A stretch of DNA of 64,000 nucleotides from positions 1 to 64,000 of the forward strand of contig DYJI01000003.1 of NCBI GenBank assembly GCA_020723185.1. The letters run 5' to 3'. This DNA is from Sideroxydans lithotrophicus. GTDB taxonomy: Bacteria > Pseudomonadota > Gammaproteobacteria > Burkholderiales > Gallionellaceae. The notes beneath the pieces were generated by a model. It was not told where the DNA came from. It saw nothing but the letters and a program-made list of their open reading frames with translations, and searched no databases. Each line of letters starts with the position of its first letter. The first letter of the stretch is position 1. The translations under genes and the position numbers were made by a program. Shown one piece after another: positions 3,566 through 16,124 of the stretch.

Positions 3566-4987
3566 TCACTTCTTCCTGCCGAACGATTCCAGGATCTCGC
3601 GGTATTGGCGCAACTCGGTTTCGATGGTGGATAGCTGGTAATAATCATTGCCGGCCAGCTTGGCCAGTTCAAGCTGTTCTATCGCACCGCGCAGATTGCC
3701 GTGCAGGATCTGAAAGTAGGAAAGAACATGGTGCGCTTCCTGGTGGCGTCCCAGAGCGGTATAGGCCCTTGCCTGCAACTCGTAAAGTGTCGCATCGTTG
3801 CCATCACGGTTGATCTGCTCGTCCAGTAAAGTCAAAGCCTCAGAGTAATGCTGCCGCTGCAACAGCAGCAGTGCGTAGTCGTAGATCAAGGCACGGTGCG
3901 TCGGGTATTCCTTCAGCGTCGCGCGATAGAACTCGAGCACATCTCCATCTTTCTTGTCTAGTTGGCGGATACGCCCGGCCAAAGTCTCGATGGTGGCATT
4001 GCGCGGGGCCTGTTTGTGCAGCACGGCGAATTCCTGGATGGCCCGCTTTTCCTGTCTGTCGCGCAACAGCGCCAGTACCAGCCCATAGCGTTGCGCGACA
4101 GGATCGCCGAAACGCTGTGTAACCAATGCGGAATGGAAATAGCTGACGGCTTCGCGCGGCGGCTTCTGCATGGCATTCAAGCGTGCCCGCATCAGATGGA
4201 AATCCAGGCTGTCCGCGACCAGTTTGAACGGGATGCTCTGTACACGATTGCCGACATCGGCGACGCGCTCTGTCGTGAGCGGATGGGTGCGCAGATAACT
4301 GGGAGTATCCCCCTCGACCAGTTGCGTGGCTTTTTGCAGGCGTTCGAAGAAGCCCGGCATCGCATGCGGATCGAAACCGGATCGTTGCAGCAGGTCGAGA
4401 CCTATGCGATCGGCTTCCTTCTCGTGTTCGCGTGTGAAGTCTAGCTGACGCTGCATGAGTCCGCCCTGTGCGCCGACGATGCCGGCTTGCGCGGCTTGCG
4501 GATTGTCGCGCGCAGCGAGGATGGCGACCGCGATGGCCGCCATCGCAGCCAGCGAGTCGTATTTCCGGCCCGAGATCATGCGTGCCAGATGGTGCTGGGT
4601 CACGTGGGAAATCTCGTGGCTCAATACGGAAGCCAGTTCCGATTCGCTCTGCGACAGCATGATCAGCCCGGTGTTCACACCTATGAAACCGCCTGGCATG
4701 GCAAAGGCATTGATGGCCGCGTCGTCGATGACGAAGAACTCGAACGGCTGGCTGGGCTCGCTGCTGTTGGCGACCAGCCGTTTGCCCAGACGGTTCAGGT
4801 ATTCGGTCACCTCCGGATCGTTCAGATATTGCTCGCTGGCCCTGATCTGGAACATGCTCTGTTCGCCGATCTGTCGTTCCATCTGCGGGGAGATCAGGGT
4901 CTGCGATTCGTCGCCCAGATCGGGCAGTCCCTCCGCGAGCAGATTGAAGGAGAGCGACAGCAGAAGCACGGACATGAGGTTTTTCAT
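3566..4987 (-). CDS. bepA: M48 family metalloprotease with TPR repeats (BepA/YfgC-like)
   Basis: The 473-residue protein starts with a signal peptide (MKNLMSVLLLSL...LLAEG, cleavage near residue 19). It has the zinc-protease motif HEISH (124-128), with a distal EADRIG helix supplying the third ligand, and a C-terminal half of TPR-like helices. BepA acts in the periplasm as a chaperone/protease for outer-membrane beta-barrels including LptD. The family match extends over the full length. The ATG at 4987 was chosen because the frame upstream lacks signal-peptide character. The gene is convergent with mutY and divergent from the kinase gene. Confidence 0.87.
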   Translation of the reverse strand: MKNLMSVLLLSLSFNLLAEGLPDLGDESQTLISPQMERQIGEQSMFQIRASEQYLNDPEVTEYLNRLGKRLVANSSEPSQPFEFFVIDDAAINAFAMPGGFIGVNTGLIMLSQSESELASVLSHEISHVTQHHLARMISGRKYDSLAAMAAIAVAILAARDNPQAAQAGIVGAQGGLMQRQLDFTREHEKEADRIGLDLLQRSGFDPHAMPGFFERLQKATQLVEGDTPSYLRTHPLTTERVADVGNRVQSIPFKLVADSLDFHLMRARLNAMQKPPREAVSYFHSALVTQRFGDPVAQRYGLVLALLRDRQEKRAIQEFAVLHKQAPRNATIETLAGRIRQLDKKDGDVLEFYRATLKEYPTHRALIYDYALLLLQRQHYSEALTLLDEQINRDGNDATLYELQARAYTALGRHQEAHHVLSYFQILHGNLRGAIEQLELAKLAGNDYYQLSTIETELRQYREILESFGRKK

Positions 4988-5080
4988 GGTGGCTATGATA
5001 GCACCGGCCAGAACAGGTTCCCGCGCTGGACAGCAAGACCCCAAAGCCGCAGAATGCGCTCCCATTCGAGCGATATCAGT

Positions 5081-6373
5081 ATGGAATCCTTAGGCAAATA
5101 CCACATCGTCAAAGAACTCGGGCACGGCGCGACCAGCACCGTGTATCTCGCGCTCGACCCGTTCAATGAACAGCAGGTCGCGCTCAAGGTGTTCAATGCC
5201 AATGTGCTCAACAACAGTGCCAGCGGCAAGGCTTTCCGCAAGCTGTTGCTGACCGAGGCCTCGCTCGCGGGCAAGTTATCCCACCCGCATATCGTGAAGA
5301 TATTCGACGCCATCATGGAAGGCGATACGAATTACATGGTGATGGAATATGTCGAAGGCGAGACGCTGGAGCGATTCGCCGAGGTCGACCACCTGCTTCC
5401 GCTGGGCCGCATCGCCGAGATCATCTACAAGTGCTGCAAGGCGCTGGAATATGCCCAGTACCAGGGCGTCATCCACCGCGACATCAAACCGGCCAACATC
5501 CTGCTGTGCGGCGAGAGCGACATCAAGATTTCGGATTTCGGCGCAGCCGTGATCGAGAGCCAGCAGACCACCCAGGTGAGCGGCGTGGGATCGCCCGCCT
5601 ACATGTCCCCGGAGCAGATCAAGGAACAAGCCCTGTCGCACCAGACCGATATCTACTCGCTGGGTGTGACCATGTATCGCTTGTTGACCGGCAAGCTGCC
5701 CTTCGATGCGGCCAACAATTACAGCATGATCTATCAGATCATGAACATCGAGCCGCCACCGCCCAGTACCTTCCGCCCCGAAATACCTGCCGCACTGGAC
5801 GGTATCGTGCTTCGTGCGATGAACAAGGATACAGCCAAACGCTATCGCGCCTGGGACGAGATGGCGCGCGACCTTGTTTCCTTCATCAGCGATAACGTAC
5901 CGCAACAGGAAGGGATACGTGATACCGAGAAGTTCGATACCGTGCGCGCTTTGCCATTCTTCAAACAGTTCAATGATGTGGAACTGTGGGAAGTGTTGCG
6001 GATCAGCGAGTGGCGCAAAGTACCCAAGGGAGAGCAGATCCTGCGCGAGGGTGAGGAAGGCCTGAACTTCTTCATCATCGCCAGCGGTTCTGTGCGCGTG
6101 GTGAAGCAGGGGCGATTGCTCAGTCTGCTGCACAAGGGGGACTGTTTCGGCGAGATGGCGCATCTGAGCGAAAACGGTACCAAGCGGAGCACAGATGTGC
6201 TGGCCAAGACGGATGTGAAGCTGATCGAGATCGATCCGTCGGTGCTGGCGCTGGCCACATCGAACTGTCGCTACCGTTTCGATGAGGCCTTCCTGCGCAT
6301 CATCGTCAAGCGGTTGTCGGTCGCCAATACGCGCATCGCGCGACTGTTGAGCGACCATGACGAAGGACAATGA
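5081..6373 (+). CDS. serine/threonine protein kinase with C-terminal cyclic-nucleotide-binding domain
   Basis: Residues 7-268 form a Hanks-type kinase. Visible elements are the glycine loop GHGATS (14-19), Lys36 in VALKVF, the catalytic HRDIKPAN (132-139), the DFG at 152-154 and SPAYMSPE (171-178). Residues 285-420 form a cNMP-binding fold with the phosphate cassette FGEMAHLSENG and a basic TKRS. All kinase catalytic residues are present. There is no transmembrane segment, so the protein should be cytosolic, unlike PknB-type receptors. Control by cAMP or c-di-GMP is possible but inferred. The rhodanese and TusA genes follow 19 bases later and may share its transcript. Confidence 0.88.
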   Translation: MESLGKYHIVKELGHGATSTVYLALDPFNEQQVALKVFNANVLNNSASGKAFRKLLLTEASLAGKLSHPHIVKIFDAIMEGDTNYMVMEYVEGETLERFAEVDHLLPLGRIAEIIYKCCKALEYAQYQGVIHRDIKPANILLCGESDIKISDFGAAVIESQQTTQVSGVGSPAYMSPEQIKEQALSHQTDIYSLGVTMYRLLTGKLPFDAANNYSMIYQIMNIEPPPPSTFRPEIPAALDGIVLRAMNKDTAKRYRAWDEMARDLVSFISDNVPQQEGIRDTEKFDTVRALPFFKQFNDVELWEVLRISEWRKVPKGEQILREGEEGLNFFIIASGSVRVVKQGRLLSLLHKGDCFGEMAHLSENGTKRSTDVLAKTDVKLIEIDPSVLALATSNCRYRFDEAFLRIIVKRLSVANTRIARLLSDHDEGQ

Positions 6374-6392
6374 ATAATCGGAGTGGACGGGA

Positions 6393-6710
6393 ATGAGCGG
6401 TTTCATGAATATCACCGTTGCAGAATTGCACGAGTTGATGGGCAAGCCAGATGTGCAACTGGTGGATGTGCGTACCGATGCAGAGATCGCGCGCGGGCGC
6501 ATCAAAGGTGCGATCTGCATGCCTCTGCATCTGTTGCCCCTGCGTTTGGGCGAACTGGCAGGTGACAAGACGACAGTGTTCTATTGCCAGATGGGTGGAC
6601 GTTCGGCACAGGCGGCCGCATTCGCTGCAGCACAAGGGGTGACCGGTGCTGCGAATCTGCAAGGCGGCATCCTGGCCTGGGCACAGTCGGGTGGGGAGTT
6701 GGTCGCGTGA
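6393..6710 (+). CDS. rhodanese-like sulfurtransferase
   Basis: The 105-residue single-domain rhodanese carries the LVDVRTDAE motif near the N-terminus and an active-site loop CQMGGRS with Cys65, the persulfide-forming residue. Such proteins move sulfane sulfur between carriers. The stop codon overlaps the start of the TusA-like gene by four bases (GTGA), so the two are translationally coupled and probably work together in sulfur relay. The acceptor pathway (tRNA thiolation, cofactor synthesis or sulfur oxidation) cannot be decided from this window. Confidence 0.9.
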   Translation: MSGFMNITVAELHELMGKPDVQLVDVRTDAEIARGRIKGAICMPLHLLPLRLGELAGDKTTVFYCQMGGRSAQAAAFAAAQGVTGAANLQGGILAWAQSGGELVA

Positions 6711-6946
6711 GTGGAGAGACATTCGACGTGGAGCTGGATGTGCGCAAGCTGGCCTGCCCACTGCCCATTCTGCGCGCAAAGAAAGCCCTGGCGGGCATGG
6801 CGGCGGGGCAGGTGCTGAAAGTGGTGGCGACCGATGGTGGTGCGCCCAGGGATTTCGCTGATTTCTGCAGCAAGACCGGCAACGAACTGCTGTCATCGAC
6901 CGAGCTGGGCGGCGAGTACGTCATTCTGTTGCGTCGTCGCGCCTAG
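6707..6946 (+). CDS. TusA/SirA-family sulfur carrier protein
   Basis: The 79-residue protein contains the family signature CPLPILRAKKAL with Cys17, the residue that carries persulfide sulfur in TusA. It is short and soluble. The GTG start at 6707 overlaps the rhodanese stop, and no ATG start fits the conserved N-terminus. It could be TusA itself or a YedF-like paralogue. The rhodanese coupling favours a sulfur-transfer role. Confidence 0.88.
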   Translation: MSGETFDVELDVRKLACPLPILRAKKALAGMAAGQVLKVVATDGGAPRDFADFCSKTGNELLSSTELGGEYVILLRRRA

Positions 6947-6950
6947 CCGG

Positions 6951-7298
6951 TCATTCGGCAGCTTTCTTCTCTATCTCCTTGGCCAGGAAGTAGGCCATCA
7001 CCGTCCGGATCACCACGATACCCCCTAGCAGCAGCAGGGACTCCTGGCTCGGCACGACGATGGTGCCTATGATGTCGCCGGCGAGGAAGAAATCCAGGCC
7101 CAGCGCCATCTTCTCACCGATGGCGATACGGATGTCGCGCAGGGAAGTGGCGGGTTCGCGGTTGCGGAGGATGTCACGGCCGCGCTGCAGGAGCAGGAGC
7201 AGGCCGTGCAGGCTGCCCCAGGTGACCACGGCCACACCCAGCAACTCGGTGAGTGGCACGATGTAAGCGATGGCACCGACCAGCAGTTCGTGCAGCAT
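6951..7298 (-). CDS. DUF1622-type small membrane protein
   Basis: The 115-residue protein has three predicted hydrophobic helices (about 4-30, 66-84 and 86-107) and a basic cytosolic loop with the segment TSLRDIRIAIGEKMALGLDF, typical of DUF1622 membrane proteins. No function is established for the family. The start at 7298 has a GAGGA-type ribosome-binding site. The gene ends 4 bases from the convergent TusA stop and starts 11 bases after the valS stop on the same strand, so it may be read through from valS. Confidence 0.8.
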   Translation of the reverse strand: MLHELLVGAIAYIVPLTELLGVAVVTWGSLHGLLLLLQRGRDILRNREPATSLRDIRIAIGEKMALGLDFFLAGDIIGTIVVPSQESLLLLGGIVVIRTVMAYFLAKEIEKKAAE

Positions 7299-7308
7299 GG
7301 TGTCCTCC

Positions 7309-10110
7309 TCAATCGAGTTTTGCTCGCTGGGCTTGCAGTTGCACCAGCGTCGCTTCGAAATCCCCCAGACGTTTCTTCTCCTGTTCCACCACCGCTGCCG
7401 GTGCACGCGCCACAAAGCTCTCGTTGCCGAGCTTGGCGTTGGCCTTGGCGATCTCATTGGTGAGGCGTGAAATCTCCTTGTCCAGGCGCTCGCGCTCCGC
7501 CGCGACGTCGATCTCCACCTTCAACATCAGCTTGTAGCTGCCGACGATGGAGACAGGTGCATCGCCTTCCGGCAACTCCGCGACCACCTGCACTTCGCTC
7601 AACTTTCCGAGGCTGCTGATGTAGGGGGCGAGTGCGTTCAATACGGCCGCATCCCCCGCCGCGATCAACGGCACGCGCGCGGCGGGCGACAGGTTCATCT
7701 CGCTGCGCAGGCTGCGGGTGGCGGTGGTCAGTTCCTGCAGCAGCGCGATCTGCGCGCTGGCCGTTGCGTCGATCTTGCCTGCATCCGCCTTGGGATAGGG
7801 CTGCAGCATGATGGTGTCGCCATTTGCATTCGCCATCGGCGCGACCGACTGCCACAACTCTTCGGTGATGAACGGGATGATGGGGTGTGCCAGCCGCAGG
7901 ATGGTCTCCAGCACGCGTACCAGCGTGCGACGGGTGGTGCGTTGTTGTGCTTCGCTGCCGTTCAACTGTACCTTGGCCAGTTCCACATACCAGTCGCAAT
8001 AGGTGTTCCACACCAGTTCATACACGGCACGTGCCGCCATATCGAAACGGTAATCGGCGAAGTGCGTCGCCATCTCGGCTTCGGCCTTCTGCAATTCGCT
8101 GATCATCCATTTGTCGGCGGCGGAGAACTCCAGCGGCAGCGTTTCGTTCAGGCCGACATCCTTGCCTTCGCAGTTCATCAGCACGAAGCGTGTTGCGTTC
8201 CACAGCTTGTTGCAGAAGTTGCGATAGCCTTCGCAACGCTGCATGTCGAATTTGATGTCGCGACCGGGGCTGGCGAGCGAGGCGAATGTGAAACGCAATG
8301 CGTCGGTACCGAAGGCGGTGATGCCCTGCGGGAATTCCTTGCGCGTGCGTTTCTCGATCTTCTCGGCGTCCTTGGGGTTCATCAGACCGGTGGTGCGTTT
8401 CTTGATCAGCGTATCCAGATCGATGCCGTCGATCAGGTCGATCGGGTCGAGCACGTTGCCCTTGGACTTGGACATCTTCTGCCCTTCCGCATCGCGGATC
8501 AGGCCGTGCACATACACGTCCTTGAACGGGATCTTGCCGGTGATGTGCCTGGTCATCATCACCATGCGCGCCACCCAGAAGAAGATGATGTCGAAACCGG
8601 TGACCAGCACCGACGAGGGCAGATACTGCTGCACGAACGGGTTCTGCGCGTCCTTGTCCGCATCACCACTCCAGTCCAGCGTGGAGAACGGCCACAATGC
8701 GGAGGAGAACCAGGTGTCGAGCACGTCGTTGTCGCGGTCGAGCTGCCCTGCGTAACCAGCCTTGTCCGCCAGCTTGCGTGCCTCGGCTTCGTCGCGCGCG
8801 ACGAACACTTCGCCGTTCACGCCGTACCATGCGGGGATCTGGTGTCCCCACCACAACTGGCGTGAGATGCACCAGTCCTGGATGTTGTTCAGCCACTGGT
8901 TGTAGGTGTTCACCCAGTTCTCCGGGTGGAACTTGATCTCGCCCGAGCTCACGCATTCCAGCGCCTGCCCGGTGATGGATTTGCCTTCTTTGCCCGGCTT
9001 GCTCATCGCCACGAACCACTGGTCGGTCAGCATCGGCTCGATCACCACGCCGGTGCGGTCGCCGCGCGGCACCTTGAGCTTGTGCTTGTCGGCCTTGATG
9101 AACAGACCGGCGGCTTCGAGGTCGGCGCAGATCTGCTTGCGCGCTGCAAAGCGGTCCATGCCGCGATACTGTTTGGGCGCGTTGTCGTTGATCTTCGCAT
9201 CCAGTGTGAGGACGGAGATCATCTCCAGTTTGTGGCGCTGGCCTACGGCATAGTCGTTGAAGTCATGCGCAGGCGTGACTTTCACCACGCCGGTGCCGAA
9301 TTCCTTGTCCACATATTCGTCGGCGATGACCGGGATGGTGCGCTCGCACAGCGGCAGCGTGACCTGCTTGCCGATGAGATTTTTGTAGCGCTCGTCTTCT
9401 GGATGCACCATCACCGCCACGTCGCCCAGCATGGTCTCGGGGCGGGTGGTGGCGACGACGAGATGACCGGAACCATCCGCCAGCGGATACTGGATGTGAT
9501 ACATGAAGCCGTCTTCTTCTTCCTGCACCACTTCGAGGTCGGACACGGCGGTGTGCAGTTTCGGGTCCCAGTTCACCAGGCGCTTGCCACGGTAGATCAA
9601 GCCTTCGTTATACAGGCGCACGAAGGTCTCGGTGACGGACCTGGATAGGCCTTCGTCCATGGTGAAGCGCTCACGCGACCAGTCGGGCGAGGTGCCGAGG
9701 CGGCGCATCTGCTTGGTGATGGTGTTGCCGGAATATTCCTTCCACTCCCACACTTTCTCGATGAATTTCTCGCGGCCGAGGTCATGGCGCGAGATGCCTT
9801 GTGCATCGAGTTGTCGCTCCACCACGATCTGCGTGGCGATACCGGCATGGTCGGTGCCCGGCTGCCATAGCGTGTTGTCCCCGCGCATGCGGTGATAGCG
9901 TGTCAGCGCATCCATCAGTGTCTGGTTGAAGCCGTGGCCCATGTGCAGCGTGCCGGTGACATTGGGCGGCGGCAGCAGGATGCAGAAGTTGTCCTGTTTG
10001 TTCGAGTCCAAACCTGCCTTGAAGTGGCCGGCGGATTCCCACGCCGGATACCAGCGTGCTTCGATGTCCTTGGGGTCGAAACTTTTTGCGAGTTCTTTGG
10101 GTCGAGTCAT
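7309..10110 (-). CDS. valS: valyl-tRNA synthetase
   Basis: The 933-residue class I aminoacyl-tRNA synthetase charges tRNA-Val. It shows the HIGH-type motif in [11 protein letters not shown] near residue 55, the KMSKS motif in [10 protein letters not shown], the editing insertion between them, and the C-terminal coiled coil (about 870-930, rich in [10 protein letters not shown]-type heptads) characteristic of ValRS. Length is normal for bacteria. It lies downstream of pepA-holC-DUF2486 on the minus strand, with 91 bases and its own candidate promoter before it. Confidence 0.97.
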
Positions 10111-14713: not shown

Positions 14714-15088
14714 TCAGGGTTTGTCGGATTGCGCTTCCTGTTCGCGCACCATCCTCTTGACGGCTTCCCGTTTTTCCTCCGGCACCTTGCTGAAAGCGCT
14801 GAACTTTTCGCGGGCGCGGTGGCGCTGCTCCATCGTCAATCCGGCCCAGTCCTTGATCTGCGCGCGCAGACGCTGCTGTTTTTCCGGAGATAGCTTGGGA
14901 TAGGCGTCGGCCACACCTATGAAACTCTTGTGCTCGCTTTGGGGCAGGTTGTCCCAGGAGTCGGATAGCGGTGCCAATATCTGTTGTTGGGCAGCCGAGA
15001 GTTCGGACCATTTTTCGGCGCAGGCGCTGAACGGGAGCGACAGCAGGGCGAGCGCCGACAGCAGCAGGGCGTGTTTGCGTGTCTTCAT
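14714..15088 (-). CDS. secreted DUF3106 protein
   Basis: The 124-residue protein has a clear signal peptide (residues 1-23, ending SACA, possibly a lipoprotein-type site) followed by an all-helical, highly charged domain with repeated motifs such as LSAAQQQIL, LSPEKQQRL and LTMEQRHRA. This matches DUF3106. The short LTxxQ-like turns resemble periplasmic Spy/CpxP/ZraP stress proteins, but that similarity is an impression. It is the last gene of the sigma-DUF3619-DUF3106 operon, 5 bases after DUF3619. Confidence 0.85.
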   Translation of the reverse strand: MKTRKHALLLSALALLSLPFSACAEKWSELSAAQQQILAPLSDSWDNLPQSEHKSFIGVADAYPKLSPEKQQRLRAQIKDWAGLTMEQRHRAREKFSAFSKVPEEKREAVKRMVREQEAQSDKP

Positions 15089-15093
15089 GCGCT

Positions 15094-15441
15094 TCAGTCC
15101 ACGTACATGTGCAATGGCAGGTCATCCGTCAGGATGGCCAAGTCGATGGAAGCATGTTCGTGCAGAGCCGATTGCTTCCATTGCCAGCCGCCGGCCAGCA
15201 CCGCTGCAAGCAACAGCAACCCCCCTGCCCAGTTAAGGGCGCGATGGTGATGGGAGGCATGCCCGTGATCGGTGACCAGGTGTTGCAGGCGCGACAACAG
15301 AGCCGCAGGGACCCTGGTGCGATGCCGGTTCAGTGCCTGTCGTCGTGCAGCATGCAAACGATCCAGTGTGGCAGGATCGAGTTGCTGGGTCGCACGGTCC
15401 AGCAGGGGGGCGAGGTCATCGAGTTTCAGTTTGATTCCCAT
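15094..15441 (-). CDS. DUF3619 single-pass membrane protein (candidate anti-sigma factor)
   Basis: The 115-residue protein has a basic cytosolic N-terminal region of about 69 residues, one membrane helix (about 70-86) and a short periplasmic tail ending DDLPLHMYVD, the typical end of DUF3619 proteins. The gene overlaps the sigma-factor 3' end by 16 bases. Topology and position are those of an anti-sigma factor, but no anti-sigma motif (zinc HxxxCxxC or ZAS) is present, so the role is inferred. The start at 15441 is the only ATG that gives the family N-terminus. Confidence 0.82.
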   Translation of the reverse strand: MGIKLKLDDLAPLLDRATQQLDPATLDRLHAARRQALNRHRTRVPAALLSRLQHLVTDHGHASHHHRALNWAGGLLLLAAVLAGGWQWKQSALHEHASIDLAILTDDLPLHMYVD

Positions 15442-16007
15442 GACAGGTCTATTCCCTTCGCTTTCAAAATGGCGGCCATCGTATGCGTGGCGCGCGAACA
15501 ATGCGTTTTGACACTCCCCTCGGTGCAGCCCATGGCGGCGGCGGTCTCGGCGGTGTCCAATCGCTCCCAGTAACGCAGTAAAAATGCTTCCCGTTGACGG
15601 GCCGGCAACTGTTGCAGTGCCGCTTCGATGACAGCGAGTATCTCCGATTGCTGCAGGGCCGCCTCCGGTGTGGCGGGGGCGCTGGCGTTGTCGTCGTCCT
15701 GCAACACGTCCAGCGGCTCGAACTCCTCGTCGTCTTGGCGCGAGACGAAGGATGAGAACAGGCTGAAGTGCGCCGTTCGCACTTTTTGCCGCCTGAAGTG
15801 GTCGAGGATGGTGGTTTGCAGGATGCGCTGGAACAGCATCGGGAATTCCGCAGCGGGCTTGTCGCCATAGCGCTCGGAGAGCTTGATCATGGCATCCTGC
15901 ACGATATCCAGCGCCGCATGATCGTCGCGCACGGCATATGCGGCCTGCTTGAAGGCGCGACGTTCGATGCTGGCAAGGAAATCGGAAAGCTGTTCTCGGC
16001 TGGACAC
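15426..16007 (-). CDS. ECF-type RNA polymerase sigma factor
   Basis: The 193-residue protein has region 2 (about 10-80, with AALDIVQDAMIKL and FRRQKVR) and region 4 (about 125-180, with LPARQREAFLLRYWERL and the recognition helix CTEGSVKTHCSRA). There is no sigma-3 domain. A 40-residue acidic linker joins the two. The GTG at 16007 gives VSSREQLSDFL, matching the usual start of this betaproteobacterial group. It heads an operon with the DUF3619 and DUF3106 genes and diverges from ilvB. Target promoters are unknown. Confidence 0.88.
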   Translation of the reverse strand: MSSREQLSDFLASIERRAFKQAAYAVRDDHAALDIVQDAMIKLSERYGDKPAAEFPMLFQRILQTTILDHFRRQKVRTAHFSLFSSFVSRQDDEEFEPLDVLQDDDNASAPATPEAALQQSEILAVIEAALQQLPARQREAFLLRYWERLDTAETAAAMGCTEGSVKTHCSRATHTMAAILKAKGIDLSWESN

Positions 16008-16095
16008 GGATCGGGGGGCAAGTTCGTTGTTCGCCGGATGATAGCAAATTCCTGTTGCAGCAAGGGTTTTCGGGCGGCCAGAGCGTGATTGGGGT

Positions 16096-16124
16096 TGACC
16101 AAAAGGCTGCCAGCCTTTATCTTG
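16096..16124 (+). promoter_or_regulatory. candidate sigma-70 promoter for ilvB-ilvH-ilvC
   Basis: TTGACC and TATCTT are separated by 17 bases and lie 40 bases before the ilvB start. No Leu/Val/Ile-rich leader peptide or attenuator stem was seen in the 156-base gap, so control by classical attenuation is not supported. Confidence 0.5.

Follow-up and report, generated by a model that had tools for sequence, protein, structure and literature searches.

The window, by which we mean the whole analysed stretch of 64,000 nucleotides, carries the genes for a sigma factor, a DUF3619 protein and a DUF3106 protein, which form a single minus-strand operon in this Sideroxydans-like betaproteobacterium (Table 1). 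Pfam searches of the sigma protein returned sigma-70 region 2 (1.6e-5) and region 4 (7e-17) and no match to region 3, so that it meets the layout of the ECF (group IV) sigma factors, and with 264.2 bits it lies above the cut-off of 173 for NF006550. Four relatives of this sigma factor were found at 89-92% identity, two of them from Sideroxydans. The two downstream proteins match PF12279 (1.6e-17) and PF11304 (3e-23), respectively, and the sigma and DUF3619 genes overlap by 16 nt. On one side, next to the sigma gene, the operon is flanked by a divergent gene that its translation identifies as acetolactate synthase (ilvB), and on the other by an LptF/LptG-family gene convergent with the DUF3106 gene.

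Table 1. Features of the sigma-DUF3619-DUF3106 operon and its surroundings, in window coordinates.
Feature	Position	Strand	Remarks
Sigma gene	16007-15426	minus	ECF-type, GTG start, 193 aa, NCBIfam NF006550/PRK09047 family
DUF3619 gene	15441-15094	minus	115 aa, PF12279; inferred membrane anti-sigma (AabA homologue)
DUF3106 gene	15088-14714	minus	124 aa, PF11304, signal-like N-terminus; inferred periplasmic co-inhibitor (AabB homologue)
DUF3619 transmembrane segment	15190-15240	minus	residues 68-84, from hydropathy
DUF3619 periplasmic tail	15097-15168	minus	residues 92-115; conserved D100, D106, L108, P109, D115
Putative intragenic promoter GTCAAC-N17-CGTT	15572-15598	minus	-35 at 15598-15593, -10 at 15575-15572
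Extended -10-like element TTTGCTATCAT	16038-16048	minus	upstream of sigma gene; found by eye and conserved in alignment

The DUF3619 protein of the window contains a single hydrophobic segment (residues 68-84). Its homologues show the same in 230 of 258 cases from Betaproteobacteria and in 83 of 85 from Gammaproteobacteria. The DUF3106 protein begins with a signal-like hydrophobic segment at residues 7-23. With mechanically chosen start codons such a segment was seen in 141 of the 257 DUF3106 proteins from Betaproteobacteria and in 77 of the 85 from Gammaproteobacteria, and 108 of the 257 showed no hydrophobic N-terminal segment. The first-pass annotation of the window had described an operon of these three genes with an overlap, one membrane helix and a signal-like segment, and all of this held, including the coordinates.

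Five sets of loci were collected with three different queries, and the fetched loci were searched with our own profiles. The order sigma, DUF3619, DUF3106 on the same strand was found in 148 of 150 loci picked by DUF3619, in all 80 picked by the sigma factor, in 57/70 and 28/29 loci of two sets picked by DUF3106, and in 28/29 loci of the window's own family picked by DUF3619. Even among the 70 loci chosen by DUF3106 alone, 67 had an NF006550-type sigma factor within the fetched stretch. A sigma/DUF3619 overlap of 4 nt is present in 290 of 345 trios. These 345 include two copies of the window itself (L001 and L262), which were omitted from the counts of motif location, codons, antisense motifs and tree changes; 338 trios were kept for the covariation and codon tables. 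Loci without the full trio, among them L125 (no sigma found), L136 and L360, were dropped. The trio is thus conserved across Beta- and Gammaproteobacteria, and the genomes behind L002-L151 alone represent 35 families by our own count, with the window's family in addition. One contig labelled Mycobacteriaceae (L219, CAJCHO010000030.1) carries a trio of Burkholderiales type and is probably mis-binned.

Within the order of the window (Burkholderiales), 215 of 300 genomes have PF12279, as do 59 of 60 within its family. PF11304 was present in 78 of the 276 class genomes and in 78 of 119 genomes from one other order. Twenty of the 85 PF12279-negative genomes of the order were looked at for an NF006550 sigma factor: 18 lack one above the cut-off as well, and the remaining two have a sigma gene with the internal motif described below, followed by a small membrane protein not caught by the Pfam search. 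The PF12279 model therefore undercounts the DUF3619 family. DUF3619-like proteins missed by PF12279 follow the sigma gene at L440 and L441, where a membrane protein that by eye looks like the RDD family lies nearby. Neither DUF3619 nor DUF3106 was mentioned in the open-access literature that we searched.

An experimental precedent for the trio, which the first-pass annotation had missed together with the promoter-like sequence inside the sigma gene, is the SigAb-AabA-AabB system of Acinetobacter baumannii, for whose AabA and AabB anti-sigma activity was reported in 2025 (Bacon et al. 2025, PMC12153292). According to that study, SigAb activity in A. baumannii is lowered by overexpression of AabA, AabB or both, and in E. 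coli by AabA with AabB, by AabB alone or by the cytoplasmic domain of AabA; an AlphaFold model of AabA-SigAb resembles CnrY-CnrH, and SigAb responds to copper (PMC12153292). Its promoter PsigAb was defined by mutagenesis as GTCAAC-N17-CGTT, and SigAb was called Acinetobacter-specific on the basis of a search for orthologs and of a tree that included RpoE-like sequences (PMC12153292).

A search of plasmid records led to an A. baumannii locus (L363) with the same trio, the third gene of which is annotated as DUF3106. Since the published PsigAb elements stand before its sigma gene (GTCAAC-N17-CGTT at a distance of 86 nt, with a TTTT run in the spacer), we read this locus as the sigAb operon and take it to be sigAb-aabA-aabB. 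After the operon, at 4841-7522 of the same record, lie convergent genes for a CSLREA-domain protein and rhombotarget A. On NF006550, which has a cut-off of 173, SigAb reaches 236.7 bits and three sigma factors of gammaproteobacterial trios reach 221.7-235.1 bits. AabB matches PF11304 at 2.2e-9 and is hence a DUF3106 protein. The 276 class genomes gave 79 SigAb-like hits with E up to 1.2e-18, of which 72 have a DUF3106 match at most 1.5 kb downstream.

The link for the middle protein rests on family profiles. As a single sequence AabA gave no significant match to the DUF3619 profile. A profile of the AabA family, made from 31 sequences (Moraxellaceae loci and L363), matched the gammaproteobacterial DUF3619-like profile over 101 columns with an hhalign probability of 96.6% (single-comparison E 6.8e-10), which fell to 90.0% when the bridging sequences L407 and L408 were taken out. 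The gammaproteobacterial profile in turn matched betaproteobacterial DUF3619 at 98.95%, a comparison in which it contained one copy of the window protein, and two of three gammaproteobacterial middle proteins score above the PF12279 cut-off, with the third marginally below. One intermediate sequence (L303), excluded from all three profiles on which it was scored, matched the betaproteobacterial, gammaproteobacterial and AabA profiles at 3.4e-8, 1.4e-11 and 4.2e-14 (Z=1000). By these family profiles DUF3619 is a divergent relative of AabA, even though the direct single-sequence match is not significant, and the trio is homologous to sigAb-aabA-aabB. The two systems share the NF006550 sigma factor, gene order, overlaps, the DUF3106 protein as third gene and the promoter sequence. 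Because the trio and its NF006550 sigma factor are conserved in Beta- and Gammaproteobacteria, the published Acinetobacter-specificity does not hold: the family is spread over both groups. The homology also lends support to an earlier suggestion for the window, namely that the three genes encode a sigma factor, a membrane anti-sigma factor and a periplasmic partner, which for this genome remains an inference.

The position of the promoter sequence is where the two systems differ: in the SigAb system it lies upstream of the sigma gene (positive autoregulation), whereas in the window it lies within it. Of 85 gammaproteobacterial loci, 59 have the SigAb motif within 300 nt upstream of the operon, with a spacer of 16 in 51 and of 17 in 8 cases, and it was present in 52 of the 74 loci with at least 200 nt of upstream sequence. 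Within 250 nt it occurs in 56/83 gammaproteobacterial loci (56/84 if the window copy L262 is included) versus none in shuffles. All 30 Moraxellaceae loci carry it, in 28 cases with the aabA match following after about 680-725 nt, and in 26 of the 85 gammaproteobacterial loci the exact motif was not found upstream. Only 2 of 258 betaproteobacterial loci have an upstream copy, and none was found upstream of the sigma gene of the window.

Inside the sigma coding sequence, GTCAAC-N17-CGTT was identified in 257 of 258 betaproteobacterial and in 0 of 85 gammaproteobacterial loci, at a distance of 126-237 nt (median 154) from the DUF3619 gene in the betaproteobacterial loci and beginning 157 nt before the DUF3619 start codon in the window. 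Two betaproteobacterial loci (L006 and L100) have the motif at both places. Antisense and reversed versions of the motif were found in none of the 258 betaproteobacterial sigma genes. The 150 loci picked by DUF3619 were the best-scoring ones listed out of 215, which makes 257/258 a favourable sample. A motif search of the window's genome gave 7 matches, one of them the copy inside the sigma gene, and the stretch around this copy recurs in all four other genomes of the genus that were searched. As 7 matches are fewer than the 26 obtained with the reversed-pattern control, we do not claim a regulon. One of the 7, outside the window (G000:C2:32542-32568, at L409), reads GTCAACCG...GCGTT and lies about 140 nt before a small gene that by eye resembles cytochrome c (CxxCH); it is a candidate target of the sigma factor, but as one of only 7 matches it may be chance.

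Sequence, spacing, strand and position of the intragenic motif all fit a promoter that the cognate sigma factor would use for DUF3619 and DUF3106 alone, and on this ground we infer that it serves the two inhibitor genes as a sigma-dependent promoter; transcript, binding or mutant data were not available for any betaproteobacterium. In the open-access literature searched we noticed nothing on an intragenic promoter of an NF006550-family sigma factor, and neither GTCAAC nor TCAAC appears in the main text of a study of start sites in Cupriavidus metallidurans (PMC9045368).

Within region 4 (RQREAFLLR), it is the codons of R137, Q138 and R145 that contain the motif bases. The 17-nt spacing is fixed by the protein, i.e. 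by the positions of R137 and R145, and therefore only the codon choice is informative. In Betaproteobacteria, R137 is encoded by CGT in 256 of 256 cases, Q138 by CAA in 99.6% and R145 by CGT again in 256 of 256, compared with 11-17% CGT and 31-47% CAA elsewhere in the betaproteobacterial sigma gene. These are the only three of 87 conserved codon columns above 97%, and the top codon of the neighbouring residues E140, A141, F142, L143 and Y146 has a share of 48-70%. In Gammaproteobacteria (64 loci) the same residues are common and their codons are at background (CGC 45-47%, CGT 6-14%, CAA 31%). On a tree built from the three proteins we counted 0, 1 and 0 codon changes at R137, Q138 and R145 versus a median of 58 over 66 conserved columns; other arginine codons on the same tree changed 52-92 times, and the three codons changed 38, 22 and 38 times in Gammaproteobacteria. 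Other ECF sigma factors offered only 2 usable sites as a codon control.

A 33-nt pattern covering the site was also searched for at the level of genomes, with matches counted per genome and their positions unchecked. It was found in 212 of 300 Burkholderiales genomes compared with 8 of 300 for the reversed control. When the lists were crossed by hand, these were 206 of the 215 genomes that bear PF12279, leaving 9 of the 215 without the pattern, and 6 of the 85 that lack PF12279; in two of these six (G072 and G218) the match is unlike the sigma motif and looks like chance. The nine are G060, G067, G102, G142, G174, G179, G200, G203 and G231; a single codon is CAG in G179 (L112), and G200 is the genome of L125, the locus without a sigma gene. 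Codon bias does not explain the invariant codons of R137, Q138 and R145. Near the 3' end of the betaproteobacterial sigma genes we also observed a bias towards GGA at G185 and CTA at L188 (window 15455-15444), which would fit a ribosome site together with the overlapping ATGA start of DUF3619.

An alternative is that the trio is indeed a sigma/anti-sigma system and the invariant codons serve an RNA structure, translation pausing or a pause of RNA polymerase. In its favour, the site lies in coding sequence, no start site has been mapped and conserved synonymous sites can have many causes. Against it, the invariant bases coincide exactly with the -35 and -10 elements of the SigAb promoter, at its spacing, and with nothing else. 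The site occurs, moreover, in the group that almost always lacks the upstream copy, and in none of the 85 gammaproteobacterial loci. We regard this alternative as unlikely and retain the promoter reading.

Upstream of the sigma gene the window contains the extended -10-like element TTTGCTATCAT. The corresponding pattern TGNTANNAT was found upstream in 40 of 47 Gallionellaceae loci versus 5.2 in shuffles, and in 140 of 210 other Burkholderiales loci versus 8.4 in shuffles. We infer from sequence alone that the element is a housekeeping (sigma-70) promoter of the whole operon. GTCAAC likewise precedes the sigma gene in 40 of the 47 Gallionellaceae loci. Its reading as a relic of the SigAb promoter was rejected; with CGTT behind it in 0 of 47 loci, the complement of the ilvB -35 element is the better explanation. 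In the window the divergent ilvB gene has, by eye, a sigma-70-like promoter TTGACC-N17-TATCTT at 16095-16123, and GTCAA, the complement of its -35, mimics the SigAb -35 on the opposite strand.

Invariant residues of DUF3619 (64 sequences) are L14, L29, R33 and A36 in the cytoplasmic part and D100 and P109 in the periplasmic tail. In a covariation analysis of 338 trios, in which the tail makes up 24% of the DUF3619 columns, the share of the tail among the pairs with DUF3106 was 13 in the top 20, 24 in the top 50 (12.1 expected) and 41 in the top 100; the same tail columns reached 14 of the top 50 with the sigma factor. D100-R93 and D107-K101 (DUF3619-DUF3106) rank second and seventh and would be consistent with salt bridges. 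The enrichment was reached in 0 of 8 random re-pairings and in 0 of 12 within 28 coarse clusters, and in 1 to 9 of 12 when the clusters were finer (68 or 133). Random re-pairing within Betaproteobacteria alone already yields about 16 of the top 50 for the tail, and the enrichment is absent in 82 gammaproteobacterial sequences taken alone. That the DUF3619 tail is the docking site of DUF3106 is an inference from conservation and covariation.

Covariation of sigma with DUF3619 (338 pairs) was dropped as evidence: the cytoplasmic part was not enriched over the membrane segment and tail, which serve as the internal control, although W147-L14 was the top pair overall. Structure models added little. 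The AF2 model of DUF3619 is poor (pLDDT 62.7; helices 7-19, 23-42 and 67-104 at low confidence) and no fold match was found. The DUF3106 model is good (pLDDT 84.7), and its comparison with the PDB gave no convincing match (best Foldseek E 0.62, best VIA Z 3.7). A sequence search found no solved homologue.

One may object that DUF3619 is merely a membrane anchor or a positive partner of the sigma factor, and DUF3106 an unrelated periplasmic chaperone in the same operon. The missing enrichment between sigma and DUF3619 speaks for this view, as does the dependence of the AabA link on family profiles. On the other side, the homologues AabA and AabB lower SigAb activity in A. baumannii and in E. 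coli reporter strains, and loci chosen by DUF3106 alone carry a sigma factor of the family in 67 of 70 cases. We therefore consider the objection improbable and continue with the reading as inhibitors.

A second objection concerns metal. The first-pass annotation had drawn a parallel to CnrH-CnrY-CnrX of C. metallidurans, in which CnrX is a metal sensor (PMC4598750), and had pointed to LTxxQ-like turns in DUF3106. The parallel held in part: both systems have an ECF sigma factor, a small anti-sigma factor with a short cytoplasmic part that holds the sigma (in DUF3619 by inference) and a periplasmic partner, and the published AabA-SigAb model is CnrY-like, yet the gene order is cnrYXH, CnrX is a metal sensor and no sequence kinship was shown. 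For the two cytoplasmic helices with which a CnrY-type anti-sigma factor embraces sigma regions 2 and 4, the DUF3619 model offers only the low-confidence helices 7-19 and 23-42. The LTxxQ-like letters are present, but the window DUF3106 matched neither LTXXQ (PF07813) nor Metal_resist, the family to which CnrX belongs, at E up to 1. With CpxP and Spy the DUF3106 profile gave E values of 0.0096 and 0.038 (Z=1000) and hhalign probabilities of 0.9-2.2%, so that no profile kinship was found. A CnrYXH-like circuit with DUF3106 as a metal-binding sensor would be in line with the copper response of SigAb and with the CnrY-CnrH-like model. Against it speak the invariant residues of DUF3106 (59 sequences), which are W, L and R without any His, Cys or Met, the missing Metal_resist match of the window protein and the other gene order, and it appears unlikely to us.

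RpoE-RseA-RseB of E. coli likewise combines a sigma factor, a membrane anti-sigma factor and a periplasmic protein in a single operon, but its sigma factor belongs to another model: the window sigma scores 38.9 bits on TIGR02939, under the cut-off of 236.15, and E. coli RpoE showed no NF006550 match among its 25 best. Profile comparison found no match between DUF3619 and RseA or between DUF3106 and RseB. The circuit logic inferred for the trio is shared by SigH-RshA of Corynebacterium glutamicum, where housekeeping promoters drive sigH and a separate sigma-dependent promoter drives the anti-sigma gene only (PMC3489674). The SigH-RshA proteins are not known to be related to those of the trio, and that system was studied in one species, while the invariant codons that would form the putative promoter of the trio extend over an order-level group. 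An ECF sigma factor and its anti-sigma factor are also tied to cell-envelope stress in SbrI-SbrR of Pseudomonas aeruginosa (PMC10418997), a possible relative.

Taken together, we think it likely that the trio is a betaproteobacterial switch of the SigAb-AabA-AabB type with an intragenic sigma-dependent promoter for its inhibitors. Computation shows the gene order, the homology, the motif and the codon invariance; anti-sigma function in this organism, docking by the tail, promoter activity and the signal are inferred. In such a switch DUF3619, a single-pass protein, would keep the sigma factor inactive through its cytoplasmic N-terminal part, and secreted DUF3106 would bind the periplasmic tail and keep DUF3619 in the holding state. 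An envelope signal, possibly a metal, would disturb this hold, upon which the freed sigma factor would transcribe its targets. The inhibition by AabB alone in A. baumannii is left unexplained by this simple model.

What the freed sigma factor does to its own operon would depend on the place of the promoter. From an upstream promoter, as in most sampled Gammaproteobacteria, it would activate the whole operon and thereby exert positive and negative feedback together, which has been shown for A. baumannii (PMC12153292). In Betaproteobacteria the promoter is nearly always missing upstream and present inside the sigma gene, and active sigma would therefore raise only DUF3619 and DUF3106, a shut-off by negative feedback, with the sigma gene itself being driven by a housekeeping promoter. 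Because most sampled Gammaproteobacteria keep the upstream copy, a single relocation near the base of the Betaproteobacteria is the simplest account. We consider it probable that the promoter moved from upstream into the sigma gene near the root of this group, turning positive autoregulation into control of the inhibitors only, and that the new arrangement was then kept almost unchanged across the sampled families; the direction of the move is inferred.

For DUF3619 and DUF3106, families of unknown function in many Proteobacteria, this suggests a role that is backed by experiments on their homologues, and a system so far regarded as confined to Acinetobacter is extended to two large groups. 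The locus further offers an unusually clean case of overlapping codes, with a protein motif and a putative promoter in the same codons. If our reading is true, the sign of the feedback in a stress circuit would have been changed by moving one promoter.
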